64,000 bases of DNA, taken from Xylogone sp. PMI_703. Lineage: Eukaryota; Ascomycota; Leotiomycetes. Location of the stretch: assembly GCA_021399445.1 (NCBI GenBank), contig JAJTUQ010000004.1, forward strand, positions 1,550,001 through 1,614,000. The letters are read 5' to 3'. The first letter of the stretch is position 1. The number at the start of each line of letters is the position of its first letter. The translations under genes and the position numbers were made by a program. Shown here one piece after another: positions 3,216 through 64,000 of this stretch. The notes beneath the pieces are model-generated. The model had not been told where the DNA came from. It saw only the letters and a program-made list of their open reading frames with translations, and searched no databases.

Positions 3216-4357
3216 CAATGCTCTGCGGGACTGGTGGGGACTTACACTTGATGATGTAGCAGCCACGGATTCCGTAGATTATACGGCTTCTGATGTACCG
3301 CTATGGGCAAACAGCTTCTTTACTGTTGGCTCCTTTTCTCCATTTGAGCAACTTCGTGACCTCGGAAGTCCTTTAACCCCAGGCTCTATCAGAGCTCAGC
3401 AAGACGAAACTATCATCCTGCCTTCACAGTTTTCAGAATTTTGTACGTCGGATGCTAGGACGGTCATGCTGGATACGTGTGTATCTGAGGGCACTCAAGT
3501 GCATGCCAGTTGCAATCAAGATATACCGCTCCACACTACTCCTCAAGAGGAAGAATCAGGCATTGCCGAGCACGAGGACACAAATGAAACTGAATCACCT
3601 GGCAGTACCAAGAGGACCAAGTTCGAAGTCCAAATACATCGCTCCTTCTCACACGTCTTGATGCCTCCACGGCCCCAAGACATGTATGTCCACGAAATCA
3701 TCGAGAGAGCAAGATCAAACGCCTTATCGAGGCGCATGCTCTTGGATGCGCCAACCCTCGCCGAATTCTTAGTCGATAACCCAACAAACGTCCTCTCAGC
3801 CGACCTGAAGAAATATCTCGAGTCAGTACGGCGACTGAGACGGACGGCAGAGTACCTTGGAACTTACTGGGTGTCCTACTTGCTTTTGCGCGTAAGTTTA
3901 GGGAGTTGCTTGCTCCAGTCCATTTCACACACCACATAGTAATCGAAAATAGTGGCAAGTTAACCAGAGTGCGGAATCATACGAAAGGATTCCCCCGTGG
4001 TTCCGGCCAACGGATCTCCAGATGCATGTTGCGCACCCCATAGCAGTTGACTTCATACCTTGGTGACGATTCTCCTCACTGTCGTGTCTCTTCTCGTTTG
4101 CTTTCTTTTTCTTTTTTTAATATCTACTAATACTAACGGATCTCAGGCCACAATTACGTGAGGAGGTGCTAAGACTCTCGCAGACTGACCCTGACAAAGT
4201 CTACGAGGTTATGACAGACATCGGGGTTTACTTGGAATTGAACCTTGAATCAACAATCGCAAAGAGTCTGAATAACGAAGAAGTCCTTGACTCTGCCGTC
4301 CGTGACTTGAGAAACTGGAAGCTAAGGGATGGGTTTTTTGGTGTGTATCCGCAATAG
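3184..4357 (+). CDS. DUF3425 protein, 5'-truncated (bZIP-type regulator C-terminal region)
   Basis: Three exons fit: up to 3891, 3953-4062 and 4147-4357. Introns 3892-3952 (GTAAGT..ATAG) and 4063-4146 (GTGACG..CTCAG) restore a continuous DUF3425 region. It reads VLMPPRPQDMYVHEIIERAR, LGTYWVSYLLLRWQV, YERIPPWFRPTDLQMHVAHP and DFIPWPQLREEVLR. DUF3425 is the C-terminal domain of many fungal bZIP-like regulators. No ATG or basic/leucine-zipper region precedes it: the frame runs straight back into the broken monooxygenase at about 3210. The N-terminus has probably been lost by the rearrangement, so expression is doubtful. Confidence 0.7.
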
Positions 4358-4497
4358 AAAGGGATATGTGATCCACCAGCGACAGTGACTGTATGATGTG
4401 TATAATAATGCACGATCAGCGAACTAGAATACACGTGTAATCTATCCGGAGAATAGATGAACATGTGGTACACAGTTTTGTATGCTATTTACATCAA

Positions 4498-5340
4498 TCA
4501 ATGCGCCAAGAGCTTGGCATTTACATGCTCCTCCTCCAGATAATACGCGAGATCACCTCCATCAACTTCTAGTTTAGTAAACCTATTGCCCATGAACTTG
4601 AACCGGTTGATGCTCCGATATTTCAGGTCATAATCCTCGTATCTCGGTTCCTGCAACATATCTCTCCAATGCACAAGAGAGCCCGGATACTGTGCTGTGA
4701 CTTTCCCGTCGGGCTTGCCCTGGTTATACCATGATCTGCAGCCTGCAGTCCAGACCCTGTTGTAAGGAACTATTAATAAAGAAGATCATGTGCAGAATGA
4801 GATATACGAACGTTCGTTCCAGCCACCTGTGGACGTGCTGATTATATTCCTTCACCACATCCTTCTTTACATCAATGGAAAGAATATTCTCTGTTTGAAG
4901 CTTTCTGATCACTTTGCAGATGTAATTCTGTGCTGACTCAAGAACTGTGACGAAGGAGCCGTAGCCAGCTGGGCAGTTAGGCCCTAGGGAACCAACTGTG
5001 CTTCCAAATCAGTATAGAAATTCAGTTTCAGTGGAGAGCATGAGGCTTCCTTACTGAAGAAATTTGGGAATCCATGAGCAGCCATTGCCAGATAAGCTTC
5101 CGGATTCGGAGTCCACTGCTCCGCAAGAGTCTTGCCATCTCGTCCGATGATAGGGAAGTACGGGCGAAAGCTGACATCAAAGCCCGTGGCACATATTATC
5201 ACATCGAATTCGTATTCTGTTCCATCCTGACATCTAATTCCCCTTTCCGTAAAAGATGCGGCGTCAGAGTCTGTAGTGAATGAATACCCTCTAAATTTAG
5301 GAATTGGTATAGGCACAACATGAATGGTCCAGAGACTAAC
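4498..5340 (-). pseudogene. Baeyer-Villiger monooxygenase, C-terminal half (inverted)
   Basis: Read on the minus strand, the sequence gives VVPIPIPKFRGYSF and then EFDVIICATGFDVSFRPYF, the conserved ATGF motif of BVMOs. EAYLAMAAHGFPNFF follows. After an intron starting GTAAGG, it continues GSLGPNCPAGYGSFVTVLE, VIRKLQTENI and finally CRSWYNQGKPDGKV and the C-terminus ending at 4498. The order and motifs match the second half of the enzyme whose first half lies on the opposite strand at 2603-3215. No start codon or FAD domain is attached, so it is a relic. Confidence 0.8.
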
Positions 5341-47514: not shown

Positions 47515-50500
47515 TTAGATAGTTAGTTCACTTACCTCTTCACAGGCGGAAGTATTTGCCGCACTTGTATCACTACAGGCGCTAGATGAAGATGAAACGC
47601 AAGCACCATCGAGTTGCGAAAAACAATTAGACTGCAGAGTACCAGACATACCACAGCACCATGTAATGCCCTGAACACAAGCGCTAACGCAGTTTGTGAT
47701 TGTTGGAAGGGGCGGTTGAGGAGATGTGGGAGACGATGTGGTCTTGGTTGTGGTTGTCGAGGACGAGACTGGCGTGGTTGGGTCTGGGACCGGAGTCCGA
47801 GTGGGATCAATAATCGGAGGTACATCTGGGTCGGTCGAAGGGATATCTACCTCATCTTCCCCCCCGCTAGATGCTCCTCCACCTGGAAGGTTTGGAGGTC
47901 GAATCATGTCCGGGGGAAGTGGACCAGGCGGCAGGACGATCGGGACGGGAATAGGGAATCCCGTTGGGAAAATTATGCCGGGAGGCAGCGGGAAGTCTGG
48001 TGGGAAGGTGCGAGGGGGTATCATGAAAGGGACCGGGGATGTGAAGCCGGCAGAAATCACCACCGAACCATTTAGAGTCTGGCCAGGACTACAATCGAAA
48101 GGAGGAACGATGAAGGAGTCTGGCCCAGGCGGGACGAAGCTAGCACTGACAGAGACTGTGCCAGTAATAGAGACGCCAGCCGGAAATGTATCAGTACCAA
48201 TGTTAAGCGTATCTACAGGCGTGTAGCCGGGCTGCAAGACAACAGGCATTCCAATCGGCAAACCTGGAGGGAACATGCCGCCGGGGATGGTTATGGATGT
48301 TGGGCACTGGTAGCCGGCTGGGAGCTGGAAGGACACCGGAGCTGGCTCACCTGGCTGGAGTGTCATGGCCGGAATAGTCAGATTCGCGGTTGGCATATAG
48401 CTAGCAGGCAGTGGGAGCGGCAGCGGCAGCTGAACGCCTGGAATAAGAGCCACCGGATTGGCGATGGAGCCGCCTGAGCCGCAACATGTGCCAGTGATCT
48501 CGCGGAGCAGGTCGCAGCTCTCGGTGCATGGGGACGGGCCTGGAGGGTCGTTATTGTTGGACATGACGGGCAAGCCTGCGATCTCCGTAGCACAAGCCGC
48601 CGTCAAGGTGAAGGTGGCACTTGGCGCGAGGCTGGTGCATGTTAAGGGGATGATGGGTACGTCCGTAGGAGTAGGGTTGTCCTGGTCGTCAGTGCCAGTG
48701 GTGTTGCCAAAGTTGCCTGTCACATCACCAGATTCGAGATCAATAGCCCAGTCGGCTGTGCCTGCGAAGTTCAGGCTCTGGTAAAAGGCAGTGCGGCTTG
48801 CTTTTGTGGTCGGCGTCATATACGCGACCCAGGTGTTAGCATAGACAACGATGTCCGAGTCGCTGGGTTCATCGCGCGTTTGTACGCCGCCAATGCTAAT
48901 CAAGGCCTGGATCTCAGCATCCGCGAGGATCCCGGGGGTTTGAGTACATGGCCCAGGGAGAGCGTCTGATGAAGGTCCATCAAAAAAACATTCTACGCCT
49001 GTACAGCCTGGGGTGGTGATGCCAAAGGATCGCCCGTAGCTGCTCACGCCAACCGCAATCTTGTTGGTAGGGACGCCAGCCTTGGTGATCATGGAAAGTG
49101 CAAACTCAGTCTCAGTCAGGTTGATGCTGTATCCTGTCAGTGCCTGTTCCGCTAATGAGTTCTCAAAACTGTCGCATAATACTATATATAGAGGATTAGC
49201 AAAATACTAAAAAGAAGTCGTCTATAGTCTTCATCTTTTAAGTATTTTGCTAATCCTCTATATATAGTACTATGCGACAAAAGCCGACTTACTGCGAGCG
49301 TAGGCAATTTCCTGTGGGACAGCCCGGATTAGTGAACTGGTTGGCGTAGTCCCATTGGCCATGGAGGTCATATGTTAGATATACGATATAGTCAACCACC
49401 GGTTCCATTTCCGCAATGGGAAAGCCTACGAGATAGCTTGAGGTACACGCACAATTAGCATACTTTCAAGTGGCCAGACTTCAGGAACATACAAGAAGGA
49501 TGAAGGAGCTGTTATAGACAACGTTTTGCCCGCGGGAAGCATTGATCTCAATGTTTTCAGGAAGGCTAAATAGTTGGGACCATCCGTAGGACTCCCTTGA
49601 GGGACTCCTGGACCCGCAGGAGCCTAACAGAATCAGTACGTCTCAATCATGGCCAAGGAGCTGGCCGGTAAAATTCTTTTCTTAGTAGAAAAGAGGGTAC
49701 TTACATCGGGATATTCCCAATCAAAATCAATACCATCCAAATTATTATTGTTGATCAAATTAACTATACTCTGCGCAAAAGTTTCCCGATTTGCAGCACT
49801 AACACTAGCCCCAAAGATGGGAGCTGAGTCTTCATCCGTAGAAAAGGACCAGCCACCGAAAGAAACAATTTTCTTGAAGCCCGTAGTAGCAACAAAGTCT
49901 TGAAAGGCCGCTGGGGTAGCTGAATTATCGACCTGAAAATCTGGCGTAATTTCAGAAAATGAGTAATGGATATGAGTAAATCCTGCAGGGATCTGAGAAG
50001 CACTCATAGTCAAGCACGGTCGCTGAGAGTTAAAGGCCTCCCAATAGCCTATTTTCATGAAGGAAGATGGCCCCGTGCTGTTATTTACTATCCCAAATCC
50101 ACAATTCGATATACAGCCTGCAGTTCCAGGGGCTGATGTACCAGGAGCCCCAGTCAGAGAGGGACTGACTGTACAGAACTCTGGCGTGATACCACATTGC
50201 CCGAATATATCGCACTGCTCGATGATTAGTAGACAATTTGCATTTTCTCTAGCCGTGGATAATACTCACACAGCTATTCAAGGGACAGGGATTTAGATCA
50301 GCCAAGGTAGCGAAGTTTGAAGGAGGCTTAGTACCGGGAACCTGGGGCCCGCAAACAGCATTCGTAACAGGCGCAGGGAACGGCGGCGTGCCTCCAATGA
50401 GAAGTAAGTCATGGAGAATTGACAAGTATAACAAACATGAACTAGCTTACCAGTGCTCAAGCAGATAATCTGGCCTAGTTGGACATCGGTACAACCTTGC

Positions 50501-51594
50501 CATCCCCAGGTGTTATTGTTAAAGTTCATAATATCCGTGCTTGTAATAAAATGCGCTTCTGCGATCGAATCACAAAAGTCGCCTGCTTGTACAGTATACT
50601 CAAAGCATGCGCCATCTGGTCCTGGCTGTGGAGCAAAATTCGGAAGGGAGCCTGCACTACAGCAGACAAATTCACCAACTGCCAGCGTAGAACATAAAGT
50701 GGGACTCGGATTAAACATGGTGAACTCCGCCCCTGAGATACCACATTCGGTAGCTAGGGATGCACAGCTATCTCCTGACACTACTTGAACTGTTGAGCAG
50801 GTGGTACCTCGAGTTGCCAAGGCTCTTGGTCGTACTAATGGCTTGGTAAATATGGCGACAGGACTGGAAGTTGAACTGCTGTCCAGGCTATTAAAACAGG
50901 TTGCATTGCTCCAGGTTTGCAGCACTGTTTGAGCTAAGGCAAGGTCTCCATCTGTAGAGATAACGACGCCCACGGTATGATTGCCGTCAATTCCATCGCC
51001 ACAATGTTGCGCTATTGCTATGCTCCCTAGGCCATGGTTCACTGCTTGATTGCTGAGCGGTGTCAAGAGGCTACCGATACTGCTAGAGGCATCTACACTA
51101 CCTCCTGCATAAACCCCGACTATAGTGTCGTTCACCTGGCTGAAGAAGACTTTTGATCCGCATATAGGATTACCATTTTCCAACTGTGATTGGATAGGAC
51201 CAAGCAACTGATCCAGCCGAGTTTGGGTTAGAGAAGCACTGTTTCCAGACCAAGTAACCTCAACTGATGCATTGGTTGCCGTGAAGTTACCGCACTGAGG
51301 ATTGGGTGCGGTAGTTTTTGCAATGCTGGTGGAGGCATTATCGACAGTGCAGGCACGAATAGTTGTATGAGTTGCAGGATTTGTGATATTGTTGTAGATG
51401 TTTAGGTCAAAAATAGTAGTTTCCTTACAGCGGTTTAGTTTCTGTATGTCATGGATAACTGTCCAGTTGCTTGGGTCAGGCCCTGACACAGAGCAGATAT
51501 CAGGGCATGGCTTGAATTGAGAAAATAACTGGGAAGCCGAGGATATTGACCAAATAGTGGGCGATAGCGCCACGACCCAAGCAAACGTCAGCAT
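47515..51594 (-). CDS. GH18 chitinase with LysM and hevein-like modules (subgroup C type)
   Basis: Multi-exon secreted protein of roughly 1200 residues. From 51594 it has a signal peptide and a Cys-containing N-terminal region, then two LysM modules (VVSGDSCASLATECGISGAE and YTVQAGDFCDSIAEAHF). A hevein-type CBM18 piece follows (CPLNSC joined to CDIFGQCGITPEFC). The GH18 catalytic domain starts KIGYWEAFNSQRPC and carries NLDGIDFDWEYPD (DxxDxDxE, catalytic Glu), YIVYLTYDLHGQWDY and KIAVGVSSYGRSFG. A long Pro/Gly-rich tail with repeated PPG/LPPG blocks and a final Cys-rich part ends near 47515; an alternative 3' splice could give a slightly different end. It hydrolyses chitin outside the cell; this type resembles the alpha subunit of yeast killer toxins. 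Intron 49127-49292 carries a fold-back element. Confidence 0.88.
49170..49279. mobile_element. fold-back MITE inside a chitinase intron
   Basis: Left arm 49170-49214 (tgtcgcata, tactatatatagagg, attagcaaaatact) is repeated in inverted orientation at about 49235-49279 with two or three mismatches over about 45 bases, around a loop of about 20 bases. The element lies wholly within the intron 49127-49292. Removing its 110 bases leaves 56, a normal intron length for this genome. Confidence 0.7.
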
Positions 51595-53141
51595 AATGAA
51601 CTAACTTGCGATGGTAAAGCAGGATGAGAGAAGCATTTTTCGGAGCCTTGTCAGTCTTTATACTTCTGGTTGAACAAGTTCCGAAGATGCCTCCGTCTAA
51701 AAAATCGTTCCGGCAATAGTCGTTCGCGGGAACTTGGATGACAATGAAGCTTACCCTTTTGACTCCTCTTTACCTTCCGTCTTAGTGTTCCTGATTATCC
51801 ATGACTTCGGATAGCAGCCCCGCCACCAGTTTCCGTCATAAACATTTCGACTATATCCTTCTAATTATTTCGTACGTCCTCCGGGTTTATCCTCTACAAC
51901 ACTAGTGTAGGCGGATTTGAGACAATTCTAGGCCCTTGCCGGGCACGCTAGGAGGGGCTTAATTAATCACCTGTGAAATAATAGAAATAGGGTATAGGTA
52001 AATAGAAGTAGATAGGTAAGTGGCCTTTGACAGGCGCGTGACTGGGTGATTGGGCAACTACCATCACACTCCTGTCACTCGCACTTACGTTATACTCAAC
52101 CGATCTTGATTAGTCCAGACCACCCTATAGTGAGTAAAGTGACAGTTTCGCTCTTGCTGCCGGAAGCTTAACAACGAAGAAGTTGATATTGCCTCTTCTC
52201 CTGCCTTGTAAATGCATGCAGTAGTCCGAGATGCTCAGACTGAGGCGATGTTATGATGACTCGTTCCGGTCATACCTCCTATGATGGGTTAGTAGACAGC
52301 CACATGAAGTGTGACACTAGACTAGGGTACTAGTAACCAAATCAATCTTGTATTTTTAATCATAGTTAATACTTGGTAATACAGAGGTTAAATCCTACCC
52401 CACGGCTGCTATACTGAAAGATTATATGTAGGGTCGCGGCAAAATATCATGCAACTCCAAAGAGGCACTAACTTAAAAGTGCACGTGCCATTTGATTATG
52501 TAACATTAAAAAAATATCGCTCACAGGCTCTTTAGTGCTGATTGTGGCATAAACGGCGCTATAATTACGGGGCATTACAGGGCATTTATAGCCTGAAGCT
52601 CACCTGTAATTTACAGGCCGCCTACAGCGTAATACTCCATGTGTTGGCGTAATTTTACCGCTTACAATAAGCATTGTTGGAATGATTCCAAATTGAATAT
52701 GCTGCTAATTGCTCACCCATTACCAAAAATTGATATTGTACTCTGATCGTGCAAACAATAGTCTCGTACTAACACCGGAGACTCAGCAGTGCTGGAGTAA
52801 GCGTCTTGAGAGCCAGAGAGAATTTCAACTAAAAAAATTATTTCTCGGGTATATCGGATGAAAAGATGGCTTAGAGCACAAGGCTATATGTCACTCAATA
52901 GTAGTATATCTACATTAAGACTAGAGAAGCCGTCTAATCTAAGACAGCATGGATCCTTTTTTCTGGATATCAGTGGGCGGTATCCTGATTTTACTCGCAT
53001 GAAATGCTTTGTTCTATTTCTTGATCAAAGAGTGAAAAGGCTTTAACTATCTCTTGAACAACATCTTTCTTCGTTTGTCCAAATTTTTCGTCCAGTCTTT
53101 CCCTCTATTCAGGCATAAACTGATTTTTCGATTAGTCAAAG
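51595..53141. other. intergenic, nothing firm
   Basis: About 1.5 kb upstream of both the chitinase and the metallopeptidase, so it holds both promoters. A stretch near 52550-52690 with repeated acggggcattacagggc and cgtaat motifs may be a transposon remnant, but I could not define its ends. Confidence 0.35.
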
Positions 53142-59729: not shown

Positions 59730-60563
59730 GATTTTAGAAGATCTAGTTCCTTGGTTTTCTGCATAGTATATGAATGCATGACAGTTTAGCTTGCGCATTT
59801 TTTGTCTGCGTAGGATCGGGAAATAATAGAAGCGGCTCATTCATATAGTGAAGTAACTTATAGAGCTAAACCTCGTCGCCTCTACATTTTATGAGTTAAA
59901 TATACAAATCCCAGCATTTGATTTGAATATTCAAGGAGCGGAGCAATTGAATAGACTAGTCAATTGACACTGAGGTACTGGTGCTTAAGTTATCACCCAC
60001 CCCGGGTTTACCGCGTGGTTACCCACACTTATGACCGCACTAGCCCTAAAGCAGCCAGCCGGATCACGTCAATAGGTAGGCCTCCTTTATTACTATCCCC
60101 CCCCCATAATACTTGTCACCCAATCCACAGGCCCCCTGGCCTGACACTCTCATTTGCTCGAACCCCCGTATACGAGGTCAGAAAAATCATCAGAATTACC
60201 CAATTCGGATTATAAGGTCCTTGCGTGCCTTGTCCAAATCTTACGCGGAGCCCGTGCTGAGGTTGCAATATTCTCCAGTTTTGCCCTTGTGGGTGACAAG
60301 TATTATGGGGGGTAGTATTAGTCGTTCTATCGTATGGTTAAAGAAGGTTATGCCGGCTCATAAGAAACGAGTACATTTACCAAATGTGGTATAGTAAAAG
60401 CTTACATCTTAGTCAGGCTTCACTGTAACAAGGATCTACCCGGCTGTATACCCTGCTGAAATTTGAATGCTTAAATAATGTATTCTTCTATGTAAACCAT
60501 CTCTTCGTTACAGTCGGTACACCACTACAGCGACAGTATCATACTTGATACAACTAAATCCCT
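59730..60563. other. intergenic with an inverted-repeat element
   Basis: About 0.8 kb between the 3' ends of the glycosidase and the repeat-peptide precursor. It holds the inverted-repeat element at 60091-60317 and no gene. Confidence 0.45.
60091..60317. mobile_element. MITE-like inverted-repeat element
   Basis: Left arm at 60091-60121 (tactatccccc then cataatacttgtcaccc) and right arm at 60291-60317 (gggtgacaagtattatggg then gggtagta) are inverted copies over about 27 bases, differing in the length of the C run. The 170-base interior has no transposase. It resembles a non-autonomous DNA transposon beside the peptide precursor gene. Confidence 0.55.
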
Positions 60564-60958
60564 TCACTGCTGGTCACGCTTGAAATCTCCAGCTCTGATA
60601 CCATCTTCGTCGCGCTTAAAATCCCCAGCCCTGATACCATCCTCGTCACGCTTGAAATCTCCAGCCCTGATACCATCCTCGTCGCGCTTGAAATCTCCAG
60701 CCCTGATACCATCTTCGTCGCGCTTGAAATCTCCAGCTCTGATACCATCTTCGTCGCGCTTAAAATCCCCAGCCCTGATACCATCTTCGTCACGCTTGAA
60801 ATCCCCAGCCCTGATGCCATCCTCGTCACGCTTGAAGACAGGTTAGTATCCCACGCAAATATACAGAATGGTCTTCTCACCATGCCTATTGGCCCAGCGA
60901 TCACCTGAGGCAGAGCTGCAACAGCGAGAAGAGCAAGAATACCGTGCACAGACTTCAT
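60564..60958 (-). CDS. Kex2-processed repeat peptide precursor (candidate dikaritin-type RiPP precursor)
   Basis: Exon 60958-60881 encodes a signal peptide, MKSVHGILALLAVAALPQVI, then AGPIGM. An intron 60880-60831 (GTGAGA, branch TACTAAC, TTCAAG) is followed by exon 60830-60564. That exon encodes RDEDGIRAGDFK and then further exact copies, seven units in all, ending RDQQ. Each unit is DEDGIRAGDFKR counted from the Lys-Arg site, where Kex2 would cut; Kex1-type trimming would leave the decapeptide DEDGIRAGDF. The total is 114 residues. Signal peptide plus identical KR-bounded cores is the layout of UstA-type precursors. A UstYa-like gene starts 870 bases away, divergently. Without the intron, the second part is read in a wrong frame. 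An alternative is a secreted signalling or pheromone-like peptide, but the nearby DUF3328 gene favours a RiPP. Confidence 0.82.
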
Positions 60959-61071
60959 ATTGGGTGATAGATGTATAAGATTGCCGAAGTTGAGATTGTA
61001 TGATTTTGATTAAGATAAAACAGACTGCCTGGGTTAACAATATCTTGCTCCCATGGGGTTGGATCTCGCAT

Positions 61072-61078
61072 TATATAG
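61072..61078 (-). promoter_or_regulatory. TATA-like element of the precursor gene
   Basis: TATATAA on the minus strand, about 115 bases before the precursor start codon at 60958. Confidence 0.4.
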
Positions 61079-61727
61079 CATATAGAGAGCTTCTTTCATA
61101 CTGACCGGTGATATCCCACTCTACTTGGCATGTCATTGAGTTCTTTAGCCAAGTATGCATCGACCAATAAACAACTTACTCTACCGGGATTCGATAATAG
61201 CGCATGAATATGATTCCAAATGGTTCCACAAAACTCTTAGAGGTCCTTCTTGCTCTTGCTTTTATAGGATAGAAGCCAAACAGATATCGGACCGAATAAT
61301 ACGAAGTCTACTGTGATATGCTTGCATCCTTGCTAAGAAGTATGACATTACAGAATTGAATGCCCCAATATCACAAATTCTTAATAGACCTTTGTAACTA
61401 CTTTATCTATAGGAAGTGTAGAGGATATTCTAGTCTTGTTTGATGTATCTATAGTATAAACACCACTCGTGGTAGTGAAATTATATAAGGTATAGATAGA
61501 TGAACTAAGAAAATCAGCAATAAGCTACAGGGCTTTTCTCAGCTTATTGAAGGACAAGTGTTGTCTAAGCCTGTCCACAAGGCTTACACATACTCTCTGG
61601 AGCCTCTAAGGAGGGTTACGTAAAAGGGGTTAAAGCTGCGAAATAGTTTTGTGCGTACGCTAACACGGTATGAGAACAACACGTGCACCTCTATCGATTT
61701 ATATCACATCCTTCGAGATAACTAAGG

Positions 61728-61736
61728 TATATAAAA
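61728..61736 (+). promoter_or_regulatory. TATA-like element of the UstYa-like gene
   Basis: TATATAAAA about 92 bases before the start codon at 61828. Confidence 0.45.
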
Positions 61737-61827
61737 ATTCCCTTTCCACCTTGACCCCGCAGATCAGCTACCGCAAGCAACCTTCCTACCGTTTCCCACC
61801 TGTGCATTGCAATACCTGCCTGGATCT

Positions 61828-62685
61828 ATGGCGACGAGTATAGACGAGGAGGAAAACTCTACTCTCCTTCTTTCCGAAATATCCAGGTTTACTTCTTCTA
61901 AACGTCCCCCAGGAATAGTCTCAAGGTAAGGGTAAAATCCTAAATAGGGCCTTGCTAATCTATTGAGTCAGGGCGAAATATATTCTATGGATATATTCTA
62001 TTAGCATTACAGTACTCCTAATCCTCTCATTCGTTTCAAAGCCACATAGTCGAGCCCACCACGACAAAGATTTTATGCTGTATTCATTTGGTTCAGACAA
62101 AAGGTACCAGAGCTTAGATCATCGTTACGATGATCTATGGAATATACTTAAATTTGAGGAGAGCGGATTTCTTCAAGTAGCGAATGAGGAGACTGGCCAA
62201 GCTGAACTGGGATCAATTACAATGTAGGTAGGATGGTTATACTAGCCAGTCGAAGTGCAAACAGGGCACACCTTCTAACTATGTAAATGGTATAGGTTTC
62301 ATCAACTACATTGTCTTGCATCGATCCGCACTGCTCTTCAGAAGGCATATGACGGTACCCCACCAGGTTTAGATTTCCACGCGGACCGGCACTGGCCACA
62401 TTGCCTAGACTACTTAGTACAGGTGAGTCGCTATTTATGGCTGCACGGACAGCTAAAGGGTATAAAGGCTACAAACTAAGTCATATCAATGGATAGACAT
62501 CCCTGTGTTTAGCAGATCCCACAGTTGAGCATGGAATACGGGTTAATGGGTCTACCTTGATCTCTGGGACACATGACATCAGGGTATGCAAGAGGCGGGA
62601 GCCGATCATTGATTTAGTCCATGAACATGGAACAGTAAGCAGCCGGAAAAATCTTCAGGATTTCATCGATATTGGTATTCTCTAG
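61828..62685 (+). CDS. UstYa-like (DUF3328) oxidative cyclase candidate
   Basis: Exons 61828-61925, 62005-62223, 62296-62422 and 62497-62685 join in frame to 210 residues. The N-terminus is acidic (MATSIDEEENSTLLLSEI), with a weak membrane segment after the first intron (ITVLLILSFVS). Then come YDDLWNILKFEESGFLQV and the two signature motifs of the family: MFHQLHCLASIRTALQ (HxxHC, split by intron 2) and DRHWPHCLDYLVQ (HxxHC). The tail has CLADPTVEHGIRV and HDIRVCKRREPIIDLVHEHG, matching the usual conserved Cys/Asp end. UstYa proteins catalyse oxidative cyclisation of dikaritin cores and are also found in cyclochlorotine-type clusters. The first intron donor (GTAAGG) and all frames are good. 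It most likely acts on the peptide from 60564-60958. Confidence 0.85.
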
Positions 62686-63783
62686 CTAGTGAAGGTGAGG
62701 GTCAGATTCCAGAATACGGCTGGATGATTCAAATTCCATTAAACCGTTAGTTGCCCGAAGAAAAGAGCGTTTAGGGCTTGTTCCTCAGCGTTTTCTGTAA
62801 ATCTTGGTTCAAGTTTTGATTACAAAATGATTGTCAGGGAAGTAGTGCTTCTAAACTATCATACAACTTCTGTGCTTGGTTCCAGTTCCACAGGAGTATA
62901 TAATTTACTAGCCATTAGCAGTAAATACCAATAAGTAGATGTCATACTGCAACTTTTGCTTATTTTAACATCGAAACAACTTGCTTGTGAACATTAGAAA
63001 CGTAGACAGATTAGTGTTGAAAAATACCTCAAGAAATGCGGGGGCAATTGAGTATATGCCATTGCTCATCTATTATTCTAAAGGGAATCGTAGCTCCATG
63101 ATAATGTGTCTCTTAATGACCTCCACCGTACACTCTAACTTTATAGGGACGAGGTCAAGACTCCAAGAATTAGATAAGATATGCCGAGCTTCGCCGAGCT
63201 TCCCTAGCTCTCGGCGCTGCAAACTAGACGGGTCGTCTGGCTCAGTGGTGATGTCTATATGCCTTCTAGTATCGATTGGCTTACCGTATGAATTCACATT
63301 TAAAATCGTTAAACTAAGGAGTGGGCCACCCCCTGTTGTCAGCAGCCATCAATACAACTCTACGGAAGGCCTTGAGGAGATCCCATACGAGACAGATGAG
63401 CTAAAAGAGGTAGTATTGTAGAGAGAATTAGAGTTAGTTACCCACAATTAATTCAAGCACCTTGGTTCGGCTAAACTCTATAGATATACGATCAACCGAA
63501 TCTTACAGAGCTAATCACGGATTCGGCTAGGCTAACAATGTTTCATACGGTATAGTACTGGTGGAAGGCTGCGTCCATCAACTCTATTGTGGATAAGTGA
63601 TAGTAATGGAATTAGACATCTATGTTACTAAGGTACGTTTATAGTGTGGTATCTTAGGTGAGCTTAGCTCACCAAGTACAAATTTAAGAGTTACCTCCGA
63701 ACCATTACTCTTTCTCGCCTATTTTGATATTTTATATACTACAACTCCTATCAATAACCAATACATACCATAGTGGAGCCACT
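62686..63783. other. AT-rich spacer inside the peptide cluster
   Basis: About 1.1 kb. Frames at 62981-63421 (plus) and 63073-63297 (minus, VPIKLECTVEVIKRHIIMEL) are not recognised and may be chance or relics. The right end is the promoter of the gene at 63784. Confidence 0.4.
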
Positions 63784-64000
63784 ATGAGTCCGAATCCTCT
63801 ATCAGAATACACAGAGCTTGAGAGGAGTGAGAGCGAAGAAGGAGAGGGGTTCCTGCCAGAACTGAAGTCCAATGCAGCATATAACAAAAGAGGTTGGCTT
63901 TCAATTCCATACGATCGAATCTGGGTCCTGTTAGTCATATCTAACGTTGCATGGACGCTCCTCTTCTTGGCTCTCTTTGCGGTGTTCAGAAGAGCTCATC
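63784..64000 (+). CDS. probable second UstYa-like (DUF3328) protein, cut by the window end
   Basis: An ATG at 63784 opens a frame to the last base: MSPNPLSEYTELERSESEEG, an acidic tail, GWLSIPYDRIWVLL, then a membrane segment VISNVAWTLLFLALFAVF and basic RRAH. Acidic N-terminus, one membrane span near residue 50-65 and a short basic stop is the usual head of DUF3328 proteins. The HxxHC motifs would lie beyond the window, so the call rests on layout and on its place next to the first UstYa-like gene. Confidence 0.5.
   Translation, partial: MSPNPLSEYTELERSESEEGEGFLPELKSNAAYNKRGWLSIPYDRIWVLLVISNVAWTLLFLALFAVFRRAH

Follow-up and report, generated by a model that had tools for sequence, protein, structure and literature searches.

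The locus studied here, in Xylogone sp. PMI_703 (Xylogone is a genus of Leotiomycetes), raises the question of what becomes of a repeated peptide, DEDGIRAGDF, that is encoded beside UstYa/DUF3328 genes and yet has no Tyr. Its lack of Tyr is notable, as rings of the dikaritin class are usually built on tyrosine. We analysed a window of 64,000 nucleotides (C20:1550001-1614000) in a 50.1-Mb genome assembled into 25 contigs, together with its right-hand extension. The results point to a probable three-gene dikaritin-type RiPP cluster, consisting of a precursor and two UstYa genes, whose peptide would be cyclised by oxidation.

A secreted-type precursor with seven identical units

In a spliced model built from the sequence, the precursor is a secreted-type protein of 114 aa encoded on the minus strand from 60958 to 60564, with the layout MKSVHGILALLAVAALPQVIAGPIGM, Arg, seven DEDGIRAGDF-KR units and DQQ. 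Exon 1 (60881..60958) carries the ATG and the signal peptide, the hydrophobic N-terminus being of the ER-directing kind as judged by hydropathy. A predicted 50-nt intron (60831..60880) has a GTGAGA donor, a TACTAAC branch site and an AAG acceptor; if it is retained, the frame yields a different repeat without KR-bounded units. Exon 2 (60564..60830) encodes the Arg, the seven units, DQQ and the stop at 60564. The original prediction of a signal-peptide precursor with seven identical KR-bounded units thus held for the coordinates, the intron and the number of units, but not for the boundary of unit 1, which after splicing follows Met-Arg rather than Lys-Arg. KR follows all seven units, and six lie strictly between KR sites. 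A published survey of repeat precursors defined them by at least three tandem repeats of at least eight residues between Kex2 sites (PMC7329392), a rule that these 10-residue units satisfy.

Tandem Repeats Finder reported three arrays in the window, one of them with a period of 36, and this array (60576..60827, minus strand) comprises seven 36-bp units that are identical in protein and differ only by synonymous third-position changes. The units vary at six DNA columns, each a third codon position, and comparing them pair by pair gives 62 codon differences, all 62 of them synonymous (P = 4.7e-4 for six randomly placed transition columns being all synonymous). This test alone cannot fix the strand, because one opposite-strand frame, with RLKSPALIPSSS units, is equally invariant between units; we chose the minus strand on account of the signal peptide, the intron, the Kex2 sites and the stop.

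The repeat has one match in the whole 25-contig assembly. Since no copy of the precursor turned up in the protein database among the 7,992 candidates scored (those with the most words in common), the gene appears to be unannotated in public data. The sole other match, a doubtful relative termed P0001 (101 aa, E 4.7e-3), carries repeats of the KSRVDEDGIRAM type, and inspection by eye showed neither a signal peptide nor KR pairs between units; we took its similarity as chance or convergence, which leaves no credible homologous precursor among the candidates scored. The letters of the core were absent from the literature searched (supplements to the survey, outside that search, might list it), and the matches listed there held nothing on Xylogone peptides.

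Two UstYa/DUF3328 genes beside the precursor

A gene carrying both HxxHC motifs of UstYa/DUF3328 had been predicted to diverge from the precursor, and it was found on the plus strand at 61828..62685. The 869-bp intergenic region between the two (60959..61827) is, by its position, possibly a shared promoter region. The spliced model of this first gene (exons 61828-61925, 61972-62223, 62296-62422 and 62497-62685) agrees at 221 of 221 residues with a public protein of Xylogone sp. PMI_703, F5884DRAFT_880842, and it contains a hydrophobic stretch at residues 37-55 and the motifs HQLHC (119) and HWPHC (149). A profile search, named beforehand as a possible refutation, placed the protein inside DUF3328 (PF11807, 63.4 bits against a curated cut-off of 25).

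The second gene suspected at the window edge proved to be real and to cross that edge. It begins on the plus strand at 63784, runs through 64000 and continues to about 64951 in window-equivalent numbering (3784-4951 of the adjoining region, L009), so that its end lies about 950 bases past the edge. Its spliced model scores 118 bits against PF11807, again above the cut-off of 25, and contains HTLHC (182) and HAEHC (209); it has 307 residues and the database protein 306, the one-residue difference falling at a splice junction. An ORF at 63180-63421 was considered as a third UstYa fragment and set aside: it has no Pfam match, and its similarity to UstYa proteins is unconvincing (best E 1.2).

Near its N-terminus each protein has a hydrophobic stretch, and each contains four cysteines and two copies of HxxHC. 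Every histidine and cysteine of the motifs is invariant across an alignment (13 of 13 proteins) that leaves out the short relative P0015 (176 aa), in which a pattern search recognises the first HxxHC but not the second; with P0015 added, one motif histidine falls to nearly invariant. At the limits used, UstYa had no sequence relatives among solved structures, and no solved UstYa structure was among the matches listed in the literature search. AlphaFold2 models of the two proteins are of low confidence (mean pLDDT 54.2 and 52.6) and weakly suggest helices bearing the HxxHC motifs, in line with the model of CctR, in which two HxxHC helices hold binuclear copper and alanine at motif residues abolishes activity (PMC12435403).

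The second gene has 12 database relatives besides itself (13 matches among 2,476 candidates), with 41-53% identity over 41-98% of the length, whereas for the first a search of 95 candidates, which detects only shared 5-residue words, returned the gene's own protein and no other. On this difference in sequence relatives, the second gene is a member of a widespread subfamily, while the first gene and the precursor look lineage-specific as far as the protein database shows. Within its own genome the first gene does have paralogue matches, the best being 60% over 45 residues at C19:4839830; a scan of that neighbourhood (L034) found no repeat precursor.

Surroundings of the three genes

The original prediction had suggested looking to the right of position 64000 for more DUF3328 genes, a tyrosinase or peptidase, a transporter and a regulator. 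The second DUF3328 gene and, further right, transporter genes were present there. No regulator, methyltransferase or peptidase family was found among the 20 ORFs or proteins of the neighbourhood that were run against Pfam, nor did this set contain identified halogenation genes, and the nearest tyrosinase match (PF00264) on the same contig lies about 2.4 Mb off at C20:4015808. One Kex2-type P-domain match occurs in the genome, on another contig than the cluster.

The genes further right (MFS transporters, an alpha/beta hydrolase, an SDR, a hydroxyisobutyrate-dehydrogenase-like gene and a PhyH-like oxygenase scoring below the cut-off) look like a separate catabolic set and were left out of the predicted cluster. 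Amid these transporters and dehydrogenases lie two ORFs that are alike by eye (L010 826-1880 and 5531-6682); the latter has a weak PhyH (dioxygenase) match below the cut-off and the former has no match. To the left, adjoining ORFs with LysM and glycosyl hydrolase 18 domains form a chitinase-like gene (49633-51600, minus strand).

An element of about 220 bp occurs in two copies that bracket the three genes, at 60090-60312 of the window and at L009 6575-6793 (window-equivalent 66575-66793). It has terminal inverted repeats and is MITE-like by eye, and its two copies, opposite in orientation, are 99% complementary over 180 nt. The best genome match of the left copy is the right copy (96%); 32 of its 54 matches, itself included, span at least 170 nt.

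Repeat precursors near other UstYa genes

PF11807 gave 108 exon-level matches in the genome, which a simple distance rule grouped into 62 neighbourhoods, some of them overlapping. We inspected 30 of the 62, 23 with about 10 kb of sequence (the DEDGIRAGDF locus, L014-L033, L034 and L035) and seven with about 3.5 kb (L001-L006 and L008), by a purpose-made search for repeats between dibasic sites. This small and uneven control contained six distinct repeat-precursor genes. Besides the DEDGIRAGDF gene (window 60564-60958, minus strand) they are a DFAEPLLGE-type gene (L014 from 2653, C1:1010570), a QTTGDKSPKYEDYEV-type gene (L020/L021), an EPEPQYRNADW gene (L023 at about 1242, minus strand), an EAEAQFSNKDW gene (L025 at about 9194, plus strand) and a weaker candidate with KK-bounded RDTDNVASYQW-type units (L002), which was found only with KK sites allowed and in which a second frame is also readable. 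Three of the six, DEDGIRAGDF included, have Tyr-free cores. The same type of scan found no further repeat precursor in the remainder of the window or in L010-L012.

The Tyr-free precursor in L014 has eleven KR-bounded DFAEPLLGE-type units and lies near UstYa matches. Those in L023 and L025 are similar to each other and pheromone-like, with EA/EP spacers and QYRNADW and QFSNKDW units, and in each a signal-peptide-like stretch lies upstream in a different frame; both lie near UstYa genes. The 2020 survey describes DUF3328 neighbours as almost absent for annotated pheromones (PMC7329392). Among the six best paralogues of the second UstYa gene, three (L014/L015, L023 and L025) have a repeat precursor at a distance of 4-9 kb, and two of the five inspected (L018 and L035) had none in the region scanned.

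The QTTGDKSPKYEDYEV-type locus (L020/L021, C1:8096533 to 8109283) combines a QTTGDKSPKYEDYEV(S/T) repeat precursor with UstYa matches and two tyrosinase matches, at C1:8096533 and 8102267, no more than 8 kb from it. The cluster contains EDYEV, which is close to EDYXI, a motif of the ustiloxins and phomopsins (PMC6339444). Judging by that motif and the two tyrosinase matches, the locus is likely a classical dikaritin cluster, and the genome therefore seems to hold a classical dikaritin too.

Class assignment and comparison with known systems

Dikaritins, in the UstYa-defined sense, are recognised by having a UstYa/DUF3328 protein nearby in which HxxHC occurs twice (PMC12048977). The signal peptide, the tandem KR-bounded repeats and the two neighbouring UstYa genes with both motifs support the predicted assignment of this locus to the class, as a Kex2-processed repeat precursor with UstYa proteins. 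The narrower marks of the ustiloxin/phomopsin type, a core Tyr and a clustered tyrosinase, are both missing. The cluster is one more example of a known, widespread kind, notable for its Tyr-free core.

How unusual is such a core? The survey covered 1,461 strains and 7,878 repeat precursors, 1,758 of them with DUF3328 neighbours; of all DUF3328 counts, 31.8% fell within 15 genes of a repeat precursor, versus 0.7% for MFS_1, a concentration of DUF3328 beside such precursors (PMC7329392). As reported there, Tyr is present in 65.6% of UstYa-associated precursor repeats (PMC7329392), and therefore about a third of such precursors are Tyr-free. The absence of Tyr was thus confirmed but is less special than had been suggested, with about a third of surveyed precursors and three of six in this genome sharing it.

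The victorin core is likewise not known to contain Tyr, and the victorin cluster contains UstYa genes. In victorin, from Cochliobolus victoriae, a multi-core precursor is likely cut by Kex2 and a C-terminal Phe is joined to an internal Leu (PMC9233826). The Xylogone precursor is likewise multi-core with a C-terminal Phe, and its core also has an internal Ile; it differs in core sequence and in forming a set of three genes without identified halogenation or peptidase neighbours (20 ORFs or proteins scanned). The gigA cluster for epichloecyclins is similarly very small and pairs a repeat precursor with a DUF3328 protein, but is described as having four genes, among them a kexin and a single DUF3328 gene, with 27-aa repeats that are imperfect (PMC7317419); in Xylogone there are two UstYa genes, the 12-aa units are perfect and the only Kex2-type P-domain match lies on another contig. 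The epichloecyclin ring, moreover, uses Tyr and Ile (PMC9233826), whereas the Xylogone core has no Tyr.

Ustiloxin and phomopsin systems share with this locus a signal peptide, Kex2-bounded repeats and more than one UstYa protein (PMC7329392), and the acidic ED before the core in their EDYXI motif resembles the Xylogone DED (PMC6339444); they differ from it in the core Tyr and the nearby tyrosinase that it lacks. The asperipin-2a cluster, as reported, is likewise without a tyrosinase gene, and has no peptidase gene (PMC12048977), but has one UstYa (PMC7329392) and a Tyr-based bicyclic ring (PMC9233826), where Xylogone has two UstYa genes and no Tyr.

Alternative explanations

The same genes could be read as encoding a small effector or a signalling peptide that is secreted in linear form, with DEDGIRAGDF released by Kex2 and acting unmodified and the UstYa genes belonging to another pathway. 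Such a reading accords with the survey's figures, in which 78% of repeat precursors have no DUF3328 neighbour and 22% have one, and with the want of Tyr, on which the rings of ustiloxin, phomopsin and asperipin are built (PMC7329392); chance adjacency is also possible because the UstYa family is so large in this genome (108 exon-level matches). However, two UstYa genes lie close by, one of them divergent from the precursor, and annotated mating-factor and pheromone precursors had, in the survey's account, no DUF3328 neighbour apart from three exceptions (PMC7329392). Alpha-type pheromone precursors carry XA/XP STE13 dipeptides after KR (PMC6339444), whereas the units here start with DED and have no such dipeptide, which sets the precursor apart from that type. 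We consider an unmodified linear peptide unlikely.

The locus might also be a decaying or silent RiPP locus, unexpressed and caught between transposon-like insertions, as the repeated element of about 220 bp on both sides and the failure of the protein database search to return the precursor itself could suggest; yet all three reading frames are intact as modelled and the units vary synonymously only, and decay seems to us quite improbable. It is harder still to believe that the repeat encodes something else, either the opposite-strand RLKSPALIPSSS frame or an untranslated tandem repeat. That frame is indeed open and invariant between units, but neither a signal peptide nor a KR-bounded pattern can be seen in it by eye, while the minus frame has a start, a signal peptide, a canonical intron, Kex2 sites and a stop in register.

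Proposed pathway

For the three-gene dikaritin-type cluster, the predicted signal peptide suggests that the precursor would enter the ER. In Kex2/Kex1 processing, a cut after KR is followed by carboxypeptidase trimming. By this biology, Kex2 would cleave after each KR and a carboxypeptidase would remove the KR, so that one precursor could release the same peptide as many as seven times. The two membrane-anchored UstYa proteins could then oxidise inert C-H bonds in the core, by analogy with the copper-dependent dimers of CctR, whose binuclear copper site lies at HxxHC(x)nHxxHC and whose C-H oxidation depends on copper and oxygen (PMC12435403).

The product is most likely a modified peptide and probably a ring. 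A ring is likely, yet not certain, because UstYa proteins can also desaturate residues, as in phomopsins (PMC10512285), or hydroxylate and chlorinate them; they also serve non-ribosomal-peptide and polyketide pathways (PMC12048977). The cross-link would most likely run from the side chain of the C-terminal Phe to an internal aliphatic residue, Ile, much as Phe is joined to Leu in victorin; we favour this bond because the core has no Tyr and there is no tyrosinase nearby. The three acidic residues DED probably serve as a spacer or for recognition, and the mature core may be GIRAGDF or a related trimmed form. Their resemblance to the ED found just before the ustiloxin/phomopsin core suggests that the mature peptide may be shorter than the decapeptide. 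The calculated [M+H]+ of DEDGIRAGDF is 1094.4749 for the linear peptide, 1092.4592 after loss of 2H and 1090.4436 after loss of 4H; for GIRAGDF the values are 735.3784 linear and 733.3627 after loss of 2H.

Five products of the dikaritin class had been reported by 2022 (PMC10512285). With this cluster, the class gains a RiPP precursor that lacks Tyr in its core and appears to be unannotated. The genome also allows an internal comparison among the six precursors near UstYa genes in the neighbourhoods inspected, one of which has a Tyr core and two tyrosinase matches, and because the DEDGIRAGDF set is small, with a single peptide and two candidate copper enzymes, UstYa action on Tyr-free peptides can be tested directly. 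Our more specific proposal, a Tyr-free macrocycle made without a tyrosinase in which the two UstYa copper enzymes bond Ile, or some other aliphatic carbon, to the Phe at the C-terminus (or to the Arg), is tentative and may well prove wrong; if true, it would represent a second natural victorin-type route, with a bond possibly undescribed for fungal RiPPs.
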